64,000 nucleotides of DNA from Pseudidiomarina insulisalsae. GTDB taxonomy: Bacteria; Pseudomonadota; Gammaproteobacteria; Enterobacterales; Alteromonadaceae. The DNA is taken from NCBI RefSeq assembly GCF_003987065.1, contig NZ_PIPY01000007.1, positions 1-64,000 of the forward strand. Direction: 5' to 3'. Below the pieces are notes generated by a model, which was not told where the DNA came from, made no database searches, and saw only the letters and a program-made list of their open reading frames with translations. A program made the position numbers and the translations under genes. Every line of letters starts with the position of its first letter. Positions within the stretch are counted from its first letter, which is position 1. Shown here in pieces: positions 31,512-56,314 of this stretch.

Positions 31512-32210
31512 ATGAAGTCGTCGCCGTTAATTTTTGTCGCGTTAGATTATCCGGATGCACAAAGCGCCTGGCCATTGGTCAGGCAGTTGGATCCGCAGCT
31601 ATGTGGTGTGAAAGTAGGAAAAGAGCTTTTTACCAGTGCCGGCCCGCAATTTGTTCGTGAGTTAGTGGAGCGTGGTTTCAGAGTTTTTCTCGATCTTAAG
31701 TTTCATGATATTCCCACTACCGTTGCCAAAGCGGTGAAGGCTGCTGCCGAGTTGGGTGTCTACATGGTGAATGTCCACGCCGCGGGTGGTCGGCGTATGT
31801 TAGAAGCGGCGCGCGCAGCATTGGCTGAGCGCGAACAACGTCCGTTATTAATTGCGGTAACCGTTCTGACCAGCATGACCGCCGATGATTTGCACGAGTT
31901 GGGGCTCAATGTCACCCCCGCGGAACAGGTATCGCGCCTGGCCAGACTAACCAAAAGCGCAGGCCTGGACGGTGTGGTGTGTTCTGCGCAGGAAGCGGAA
32001 ATGTTACAAGAGCAGTGTGGCAACGACTTTGTATTGGTTACCCCCGGTATTCGTCCGGCGGGTAGTGAGCAGGGTGATCAGAAGCGCGTGATGACGCCCG
32101 AGCAGGCGGCGCGGCAGGGTATTCAGTACCTGGTCATCGGTCGTCCCATTACGCAGGCCAGCTCACCGGCAGAGGCGCTACAACAGATTCAGGCATCGCT
32201 GACAGCTTAA
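31512..32210 (+). CDS. pyrF: Orotidine 5'-phosphate decarboxylase
   Basis: A 232-residue enzyme that makes UMP from OMP. The catalytic signature is [25 protein letters not shown] and YLVIGRPIT form the phosphate-binding end. Its ATG directly follows the lapB stop codon. Confidence 0.97.
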
Positions 32211-32247
32211 TCGGCGATATCCGCTCGCTTCGGCTCGCCCAGCAGAC

Positions 32248-32290
32248 TAAGCTCCTTGTACTGCTTTCGCAGTCTCAAACAAGGAGCTTA
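32248..32290 (+). promoter_or_regulatory. Hairpin that sequesters the ribosome binding site of the comEA-like gene
   Basis: TAAGCTCCTTGT (32248-32259) and ACAAGGAGCTTA (32279-32290) are perfect 12-bp arms. An inner 5-bp helix ACTGC/GCAGT (32260-32264 with 32269-32273) stacks on them. The Shine-Dalgarno AAGGAG (32281-32286) is inside the right arm, 3 nt before the ATG at 32294. There is no T-run, so a terminator on this strand is unlikely. Confidence 0.7.
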
Positions 32291-32293
32291 AAA

Positions 32294-32617
32294 ATGTTAC
32301 GGAAAACCCTTTTTCTTGCCCTGTTCGTCGCGTCTGGCGCGCTGACAAGCGTCGCTGCGACCGCACAACCACTCACCGTTCAACCGACGCAGCAACAAAA
32401 CGCGTTGCAGCAGCAGCAAGTCATTAACGTGAATATTAATACCGCCAGTGCGGCGGAATTAGCGATGTCGCTGACTGGCGTGGGGCAACGCCGCGCCGAA
32501 GCCATTGTGGCGTTACGCGAACAACTGGGTGGCTTTACCGATGCCAATCAGTTAATGCAGATTAAAGGCATTGGCCCGCGGTTGATCGAACTGAATAAAG
32601 AGCGTATTGAGCTCTAA
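32294..32617 (+). CDS. ComEA-like helix-hairpin-helix protein, exported
   Basis: A 107-residue protein with a signal peptide (about residues 1-24, ending ATAQ), a Q-rich linker, and a ComEA/YbaV-type helix-hairpin-helix domain (NINTASAAELAMSLTGVGQR... LMQIKGIGPRLIELNKERI). Gammaproteobacterial ComEA proteins are periplasmic DNA binders that ratchet in DNA during transformation; similar short proteins also exist with no proven uptake role. It is unusual in having its ribosome binding site in a long hairpin. It overlaps the converging rhombosortase gene by 4 bp. Confidence 0.85.
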   Translation: MLRKTLFLALFVASGALTSVAATAQPLTVQPTQQQNALQQQQVINVNINTASAAELAMSLTGVGQRRAEAIVALREQLGGFTDANQLMQIKGIGPRLIELNKERIEL

Positions 32618-33222
32618 TCGTCTGACAGCCGGGCAAGTTTCGCCAGGCGGCGGTTGTGTAGCCACCAGGCAAGGATGCCGGTAAGGATACCAGCGCCATG
32701 CAATTGCCAGACTTCGCGAACTTGCCCGGCTGTCAACATGCTCTGCCACCAACCTGCGGCTTCGGCCAACCACTTCGCCAATAATAGCACTGTGATCAGG
32801 AATAGCAGTTGACGTTGCCTGGCAGAGTTGCGCTGCTGCCATTCAAAACATAAGCCCATCACTAGTAGGCCATGATTGACGATGGAGAGGCCGACAAAGT
32901 GGTGCTCAAAGCCCACAGCCCACAATAACCCCGAGCTACCCAACGTTATAATCACCAGCGCGTTGAGGTAGGTGCGAACGGTAAAGTAATGGGCAAATAG
33001 TACGGTCAACAGCAGTAATGCCGCGATGTTAGCCAGCCAGTGACTTTGACTGAGATGTAAAAAATGTGCGGTCAGCAGCCGCCATGGCTCTTGCCATAAT
33101 AACTGCGGAGCATAATCAAATTGCTCAAGTAAAGCCGCATACTCAAACTGATAGTAATAAGCCCAGACCGCAACTGCGGCTAGCACGATGCTACATATAA
33201 TGACTTGAAGACGGTCAGACAT
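32614..33222 (-). CDS. rrtA: Rhombosortase-type rhomboid protease
   Basis: A 202-residue membrane protein with about six TM helices. It has the rhomboid marks HWLAN (H61, N65), the nucleophile region VGLSIVNHG (predicted Ser113) and the TM6 histidine in LHGAGILTG (H175). The short form with GLSxxxHG fits rhombosortases, which cleave proteins carrying a GlyGly-CTERM tail for release or surface anchoring. I saw no GlyGly-CTERM protein in this window. The ATG at 33222 is chosen; the frame is open 21 codons further upstream without a good N-terminus. Confidence 0.75.
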   Translation of the reverse strand: MSDRLQVIICSIVLAAVAVWAYYYQFEYAALLEQFDYAPQLLWQEPWRLLTAHFLHLSQSHWLANIAALLLLTVLFAHYFTVRTYLNALVIITLGSSGLLWAVGFEHHFVGLSIVNHGLLVMGLCFEWQQRNSARQRQLLFLITVLLLAKWLAEAAGWWQSMLTAGQVREVWQLHGAGILTGILAWWLHNRRLAKLARLSDD

Positions 33223-33329
33223 AAGTCGTAGATTCACTTTACTGGCGTTGTGATAAAAGCATAAGCCCTTTATGATAGAAGCCACCTATCACTCTGTAAA
33301 CCAGAACCTTTGACAGCAAAGGAATATTT

Positions 33330-55420: not shown

Positions 55421-55765
55421 ATGCTTATTTATATTCGCCAGTGGCAGCAAAAAATGAAACCCCAACCCGGCGCCAATCCTCTGGTGGTGCTGCTCAGCTG
55501 GTTTGTCTTCGGTATCTTTCTGTTACTTGCGCTGGGTATTGGTCTGATTGTGCTCATTGTGGGCTGGATTCTGTTGTTGCCGCTCATGTGGCGCAAGCGC
55601 CGGCAACTGAAGCAGATGTGGCAGTTCAATAAAGCAGCGCAACAAGCCCAGCGTCAGGCACAGCAACGCTATCAGCAACAACGTGAGCAGCAGCGTGATC
55701 GCGCCGACAGCTCAGTGATTGAGGGCGAATATAGCGTGAAAGAGGACGATCAGGAGCGCCGCTAA
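55421..55765 (+). CDS. Small membrane protein with Q/R-rich tail
   Basis: A 114-residue protein of unknown family. Two close TM helices (about 21-55) are followed by a basic patch (WRKRRQLKQMW) and a Q/R-rich, probably helical, tail. The ATG at 55421 has GAGAG 4 bases upstream; a GTG at 55412 is also possible. It overlaps the converging DUF2937 gene by 4 bp. Confidence 0.65.
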   Translation: MLIYIRQWQQKMKPQPGANPLVVLLSWFVFGIFLLLALGIGLIVLIVGWILLLPLMWRKRRQLKQMWQFNKAAQQAQRQAQQRYQQQREQQRDRADSSVIEGEYSVKEDDQERR

Positions 55766-56277
55766 CGGTGGCGTTGTTGGACCGAGCGTCGGCGGCGCAA
55801 CGTTCGTTTACCGAGTCCGGTAATAATATCCACCAGTACCACCAGGGCCAGCGCCAACAAGGCTCCTGTCGCCAGCGCCTGCTGATTCAGTGGTACGTTA
55901 AAGCTATACTGCTCCAACGTACCGCTTAATAATTCATCATCATGACGCCATACCAGCGCCCACAGCTGCTGTACATAGTTCTGCTGCTGCAGTTGTAACT
56001 GCTGCTCAAAGCGCGCCACACGTTGCACCAGCTTCTCAATGATCTTCGCTTCTTGCTGAAAGGCAGGCTCAGGACTTTGCTTGTGGGCCGCTATGAGTCG
56101 CTCCAGCTCGCCGTTATAGAACTGGTCGGCTAGCTGCTGATAATCACGGTAATACACCATAGCTTCGGCATATTGCGCAGCCAAACGTTGTTGATACTGA
56201 GTCAGCAGGTTGGGGGCCTGAATGCCGATAAGCAGGGTTACGGCGGCAAGGCAGAGAATGAAATAACGGTAAATCAT
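55762..56277 (-). CDS. DUF2937 family membrane protein
   Basis: A 171-residue protein with TM helices at both ends (about 5-22 and 133-155) and a long helical, Q-rich middle that should lie in the periplasm. It matches the layout of DUF2937, whose function is unknown. It lies downstream of the acrAB-like pair on the same strand; a 15-bp hairpin holding its ribosome binding site separates them. Confidence 0.7.
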   Translation of the reverse strand: MIYRYFILCLAAVTLLIGIQAPNLLTQYQQRLAAQYAEAMVYYRDYQQLADQFYNGELERLIAAHKQSPEPAFQQEAKIIEKLVQRVARFEQQLQLQQQNYVQQLWALVWRHDDELLSGTLEQYSFNVPLNQQALATGALLALALVVLVDIITGLGKRTLRRRRSVQQRHR

Positions 56278-56278
56278 G

Positions 56279-56314
56279 GCTAAGGTTACCTCAGGTCAAT
56301 GAGGTAACCTTAGC
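56279..56314 (-). promoter_or_regulatory. 15-bp hairpin over the ribosome binding site of the DUF2937 gene
   Basis: Perfect 15-bp arms (56279-56293 and 56300-56314) enclose a 6-nt loop. On the minus strand the 3' arm contains GAGG (56289-56292) and ends 1 nt before the ATG at 56277. There is no T-run after it. It may block translation of the DUF2937 gene or mark the 3' end of the acrAB-like transcript. Confidence 0.75.

Follow-up and report, generated by a model that had tools for sequence, protein, structure and literature searches.

Within the window, the 64,000-nucleotide stretch of Pseudidiomarina insulisalsae DNA analysed here, a comEA-type gene (32294-32617, plus strand; 107 aa) lies downstream of pyrF, which encodes orotidine 5'-phosphate decarboxylase (31512-32210, plus strand; NF001273 327 bits, cut-off 193). 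The ComEA helix-hairpin-helix region is present in the predicted gene product, which matches HHH_3 with an E value of 2.5e-18 and TIGR00426 at 74 bits (cut-off 53.1), bearing out the ComEA-like assignment of a preliminary description of this DNA. Against the fuller model TIGR01259 the product reaches 58.5, short of the cut-off of 152.35. A rhombosortase-like gene (32614-33285, minus strand; TIGR03902 79.5 bits, just below the cut-off of 84) is convergent with comEA and overlaps its last 4 bases. TfoX_N gave no match in the window's genome, with E. coli and Caulobacter vibrioides positive among 14 controls.

This arrangement recurs across the genus. comEA was found in all 26 genus genomes examined, with 63-79% protein identity for the six named Pseudidiomarina relatives. 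At every one of these loci an ORF of 231-236 codons, identified as PyrF by family models in the window copy only, ends on the same strand 50-160 nt upstream of comEA. The gap is 83 nt in the window and 75-137 nt in 25 loci, a shorter overlapping ORF having been picked for L007. A scan for intrinsic terminators detected none upstream of comEA at any of the 26 loci, and pyrF is presumed to be the source of read-through RNA into comEA.

A hairpin encloses the ribosome binding site of comEA

The ribosome binding motif (SD) of comEA, AAGGAG at 32281-32286, is enclosed by 12 perfect pairs between a left, anti-SD arm TAAGCTCCTTGT (32248-32259, plus strand) and a right arm ACAAGGAGCTTA (32279-32290, plus strand) that ends 3 nt before the ATG (32294-32296). 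Between the arms sits an inner stem-loop, ACTGC-TTTC-GCAGT (32260-32273, plus strand), with a predicted stem of 32260-32264 with 32269-32273 and a TTTC loop. The MFE of 32235-32320 is -27.7 kcal/mol against a shuffle mean of -14.7 (z -5.0; equalled by 0/200 shuffles), and the SD arm paired with the upstream 88 nt gives a duplex of -19.7 kcal/mol (z -6.45; equalled by 0/100 shuffles). The hairpin as first described, with its perfect 12-bp arms, is thereby confirmed. When the same SD-arm test was applied to 26 other starts in the window, namely those with ATG and an SD-like motif among 51 kept ORFs (the ORF filter having lost comEA itself), a single one was equally extreme (56277, minus strand, z -7.41) and the other 25 had z of -1.12 or above.

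Several other readings of the hairpin were considered and set aside. An intrinsic terminator or attenuator was rejected, as the scan found no terminator-like site with a GC-rich hairpin and U run at 32248-32290, where AAA and then the ATG come after the right arm. An alternative pairing of AGACT (32244-32248) with AGTCT (32271-32275), suggested earlier as the basis of a switch, does exist in the window but has an equivalent in only 3/26 genus members, the window's included, and was discarded as a switch. The Rfam 15 covariance models, run on 31900-32700, returned as their sole match a chance-level hit to isrG on the other strand (10.5 bits, gathering 100).

The exact form CTCCTT..AAGGAG..ATG occurs at two places in the genome, the window site and L155 (G000:C14:149968-150018), where the repeat precedes the ATG of a small ORF that looks secreted by eye. 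The other extreme start in the window belongs to a DUF2937 gene (ORF 55762-56277, minus strand), before which a 15-bp hairpin at 56279-56314 ends 1 nt from the ATG. This gene is present in 23/26 genus genomes. At nine of the 23 loci a terminator-like hairpin is followed by a T run that reaches right up to the ATG; at 11, as in the window, the hairpin lacks a T run; at one, hairpin and T run lie further upstream, and at two there is no such hairpin. From this pattern it seems that a terminator became a hairpin at the start site, or that the change went the other way.

Pairing is kept across most of the genus, with compensatory changes

Pairing of the comEA SD persists in most of the 26 genus genomes despite changes in arm sequence from species to species. 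Against the upstream 88 nt, the SD-arm duplex has a mean z of -3.14 over the 26 loci, with f ≤ 0.05 at 17 and f ≤ 0.01 at 12, and duplex energies range from -8.9 to -24.1 kcal/mol. CTTG/CAAG in the arms becomes CTGG/CCAG in L003 and L004, for example, and L018, L020 and L022 carry GAATACACTTCTG/CAGGAGTGTATTC as arms. L025 is an exception with no good helix at the promoter, its cognate arms pairing more weakly (-5.1) than the mean of non-cognate combinations (-7.4).

Two kinds of comparison show that the arms have changed together. When arms were swapped between 22 loci, cognate combinations had 220/242 cells paired against a swapped mean of 186 (maximum 202 in 2000 shuffles), the register having been chosen on cognate arms, so that these are favoured in this comparison as in the 22-locus tree below. 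Two versions covering all 26 loci carry no bias to the cognate arms: with the register re-optimised for each pairing the count is 247/286 against a mean of 217 (maximum 231), and with a fixed GGAG register 230/286 against 207 (maximum 221). On a tree built from PyrF and ComEA, 15 double changes from one pair to another were inferred for 22 loci (L013, L017, L024 and L025, with fewer than 8 pairs, were dropped) against a permuted mean of 3.7 and maximum of 11 in 500 permutations, together with 12 single changes that kept the pair, 14 losses, 5 gains and 1 unpaired change. The fixed register, which gives cognate arms no advantage, yields 11 double changes over all 26 loci (permuted mean 3.9; 1/500 permutations reaches 11), alongside 12 single changes, 28 losses, 13 gains and 5 unpaired changes. 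The compensatory changes for which the preliminary description proposed a search in relatives are therefore present, and together with the kept SD helix they support translational control as the class of mechanism. That the helix is a maintained RNA structure over the comEA SD is well supported by these comparisons.

The inverted repeat might instead act as DNA, as an operator or cruciform, and its overlap with a promoter-like hexamer (see below) would fit such an element. We regard this as highly improbable. G-U pairs are frequent, making up 29/230 paired cells, as would be expected if the pairing occurred in RNA and not in a DNA palindrome; the SD lies within one arm, the sequences differ among species and the end of the left arm lies anywhere from -29 to -98 relative to the ATG across loci.

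Outside the genus SD-arm complementarity is weak, with a mean z of -0.43 for 85 family loci (two genomes being included twice, as L052/L079 and L055/L087), -0.55 for 16 order loci and -0.55 for 8 loci from two neighbouring genera; beyond the genus a rule was used to pick the start codons, some of which may be wrong. A plain extension of the helix to the family or order was accordingly rejected, since it is weak overall and the positional effect described below appears only in loci selected by promoter.

A promoter-like pattern overlaps the left arm

The outer half of the left arm coincides with a -10-like hexamer, TAAGCT (32248-32253, plus strand), and a TANNCT hexamer lies in or adjoining the left arm at all 26 genus loci. 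In the window CTCGCT (32224-32229, plus strand) occupies the -35-like position, 18 nt before the hexamer. In ungapped columns counted from the hexamer, T is found at -23 in 24/26 loci, G at -21 in 23/26 and C at -20 in 20/26. An exact TTnGC occurs 18 nt upstream of the hexamer in 13/26 loci and in fewer than 3 at every other offset tested. The hexamer is kept in nine loci where, in the best register, it is not fully paired (L010, L011, L013-L017, L024 and L025). In L017, L021 and L024 the best anti-SD arm does not extend beyond the first base of the hexamer. A sigma-70 scan of the window did not report the CTCGCT/TAAGCT site, which is weak; any promoter here would consequently be weak or need an activator. 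Window positions 32200-32247, which take in the last bases of pyrF and those following the stop codon (TGACAGC.TAATCCG in many relatives), lie at a near-fixed distance from the hexamer, as if an activator were bound across the pyrF stop; a block where the upstream gene ends is also conserved.

From the position of the hexamer, transcription is predicted to start at about 32260, that is, at the inner stem-loop. In the genus the 32 nt after the predicted start fold with a mean of -7.7 kcal/mol; the two preceding stretches of 32 nt average -2.8 and -3.6, and the stretch after the start folds lowest of the three in 18/26 loci. A set rule applied outside the genus recovered a TTGACA-like/TA promoter at the matching place in 29/109 loci, of which 26 are distinct (the 29 include the duplicates L052/L079 and L055/L087 and the similar pair L152/L154). 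These promoters resemble TTGACA-17-TAAACC, with TAAACC itself in 13 of the 26 distinct loci, and in all 26 the first MFE pair falls within 3 nt of the predicted +1. With L052, L055 and L154 dropped, as also for the accessibility analysis below, the stretch after the start has a mean fold of -8.8 kcal/mol against -0.9 and -2.1 for the preceding two and is the lowest in 23/26.

The overlap of arm and hexamer bears on which RNAs would carry the hairpin. Since the arm overlaps the predicted -10 hexamer, the left arm would be found only in RNA arriving from upstream, from pyrF. It had been noted earlier that a promoter leaving the left arm untranscribed would speak against control by the hairpin; this situation appears to hold for one transcript.

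A trans-acting arrangement would read the locus differently, with ComEA made only from hairpin-bearing RNA that a small RNA or protein opens in competence. The tfoX gene of V. cholerae and its small RNA TfoR offer a precedent for a hairpin opened in trans. The maintained helix over the SD is in keeping with this reading, as is the sequence conservation of the inner CTGC/GCAG stem in one part of the genus, which would be expected of a binding site. It leaves unexplained, however, the TANNCT hexamer in 26/26 loci, its 18-nt spacing and the stem-loop at the predicted +1, and no Rfam family was matched. The anti-SD arm also varies among species, which a small RNA with a fixed seed would presumably not favour. 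On balance we consider this reading, which takes in the small-RNA target offered at first, unlikely.

The hairpin could also be a constant damper, always present in a comEA transcript that starts upstream of the left arm and keeping ComEA low. The parallel would be the small hairpin at the ribosome binding site in the leader of B. subtilis sigG, where such hairpins are described as damping translation 2-4 fold (PMC5942855). Against this, the predicted SD accessibility of 0.001 in the long RNA is nearer to off than to damping and the promoter-like pattern within the arm would go unexplained, so that a damper seems distinctly unlikely.

Complementarity to the SD lies in the predicted promoter segment

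In the genus, SD complementarity of the segment from -32 to -1, just before the predicted start, has a mean z of -2.83, with f ≤ 0.05 at 17/26 loci and f ≤ 0.01 at 10. The preceding 32 nt have a mean z of 0.18 (0/26) and the leader 0.22 (0/19, seven leaders being too short). In the 29 family loci, which were selected by promoter alone, the corresponding segment has a mean z of -1.34, with f ≤ 0.05 at nine and f ≤ 0.01 at six, against 0.09 for the preceding 32 nt (2/29; none with f ≤ 0.01) and -0.19 for the leader (5/29; two with f ≤ 0.01). The gene's own predicted transcript would thus lack the sequence complementary to the SD.

Predicted SD accessibility was compared between the two RNAs. For the window it is only 0.34 in the short RNA and 0.001 in the long RNA at 37 °C. 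Across the genus it averages 0.44 for the short RNA and 0.09 for the read-through RNA, and shuffling the upstream 60 nt gives 0.32; read-through is less accessible than shuffled in 23/26 loci, all but L019, L023 and L031. The corresponding averages for 26 family loci are 0.50, 0.36 and 0.41, and read-through is lower than shuffled in 16/26, which is not significant (p 0.068, with p-values here treating related genomes as independent). Temperature has little effect in the model. An RNA thermometer opening on warming was among the readings offered at first, and a helix over the SD is indeed the hallmark of one, but accessibility in the window's long RNA stays at 0.000-0.001 from 10 to 50 °C and reaches only 0.003 at 60 °C. 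The wide spread of duplex energies within the genus and the absence of an Rfam match also disfavour this reading, to which we give scarcely any credence.

Discussion

The best explanation for the comEA hairpin is probably isoform-specific translational silencing of read-through RNA. It builds on the computed helix, its compensatory evolution, its position relative to the promoter-like pattern and the difference in SD exposure between the two RNAs. The left arm would play two roles, contributing to the -10 region of the promoter of comEA itself and being antisense to the comEA SD. RNA polymerase running on from pyrF would produce a long RNA with both arms, in which the SD would be locked in the 12-bp helix and from which no ComEA would be made. 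When the comEA promoter fires, transcription would begin just downstream of the left arm (+1 at about 32260), and the resulting short mRNA would open with a small stem-loop, lack the left arm and leave its SD more open. ComEA synthesis would in this way be tied to the gene's own promoter and insulated from the upstream housekeeping gene. The argument has two limbs: maintained pairing implies that some RNA includes the left arm, and an overlapping promoter implies another RNA from which it is absent, which taken together suggest a locked read-through RNA and an open own mRNA. The first limb is well supported, and the second draws on sequence patterns. From these we infer use of a promoter and a start at this place, read-through from pyrF and a difference in translation between the two RNAs.

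A co-directional upstream gene with no detected terminator is also common in the family, where complementarity is weak, and the lock would therefore not be required wherever read-through is possible. The notion that the helix substitutes for a terminator was rejected on the same loci: the 76/85 family loci with no detected terminator have a mean z of -0.46 and the nine with one -0.19, so the helix is not predicted by the state of the terminator.

If the message of a DNA-uptake receptor is indeed locked by a conserved element built into its promoter, this would illustrate how regulated genes manage to sit behind a housekeeping gene with no terminator in between. The signature is simple, with SD complementarity in the promoter segment and not elsewhere, and other genomes can be screened for it. 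A broader claim is possible, though on the doubtful side: that in comEA genes of the family one stretch of DNA serves as both core promoter and anti-SD, both functions being selected while the sequence changes, as an instance of a general class of silencer. Were this true, isoform-specific translational silencers of this type would form a class that has mostly escaped attention and that shields regulated genes from the housekeeping genes beside them; in any genome its members could be recognised by an SD with its complement in the promoter and nowhere else.

Comparison with known systems

Translational control of a competence gene has a parallel in the sxy leader of Haemophilus influenzae, where regulation is reportedly by purine availability. 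Both sxy and comEA would be competence genes under translational control, predicted in the case of comEA, and they differ in that sxy is an activator and comEA a DNA receptor; we know of no promoter-in-arm arrangement at sxy. No report of RNA control at comEA was found among titles and opening lines of abstracts in the open-licence literature. V. cholerae comEA is described as having its own mapped promoter near the gene, with a short leader and a start at -24, and as being controlled transcriptionally by TfoX, CRP and QstR (PMC4299799); the main text of that paper never uses the terms 'untranslated', 'UTR' or 'posttranscription'. A close promoter of its own is also predicted for the gene described here, and the difference lies in the transcriptional control described for V. 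cholerae; in the window's genome TfoX_N found no match.

Closer precedents for the proposed lock come from other genes. The available part of PMC12802891, considered as one of them, concerns convergent promoters and was set aside. In phage T4, long early transcripts that reach gene e (lysozyme), and also soc, 49 and I-TevI, from upstream carry a helix that sequesters the SD, and for related phages the DNA of the helix's 5' strand is described as containing a late promoter (PMC3014915). Gene e would resemble the arrangement predicted for comEA in having an SD-sequestering helix in the long RNA and a promoter in its 5' strand. It differs in being a phage lysis gene with late promoters, measured 5' ends and an effect of about 100-fold, whereas comEA is a bacterial competence gene for which the arrangement is predicted only. 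For B. subtilis sigG, a large hairpin is proposed to block translation of read-through RNA and is unable to form in transcripts started at the sigG promoter itself (PMC5942855). As at comEA, this is a chromosomal gene following an operon for which a read-through-blocking hairpin is proposed; unlike comEA, to which it has no homology, it encodes a sporulation sigma factor of the Firmicutes and its hairpin has 20 or more pairs. The account of the large sigG hairpin in PMC5942855 describes no compensatory evolution. Compensatory changes at the comEA locus would supply evolutionary evidence for an arrangement already known at T4 gene e and put forward for B. subtilis sigG, and the lock is probably a further case of read-through silencing of the gene e and sigG type.
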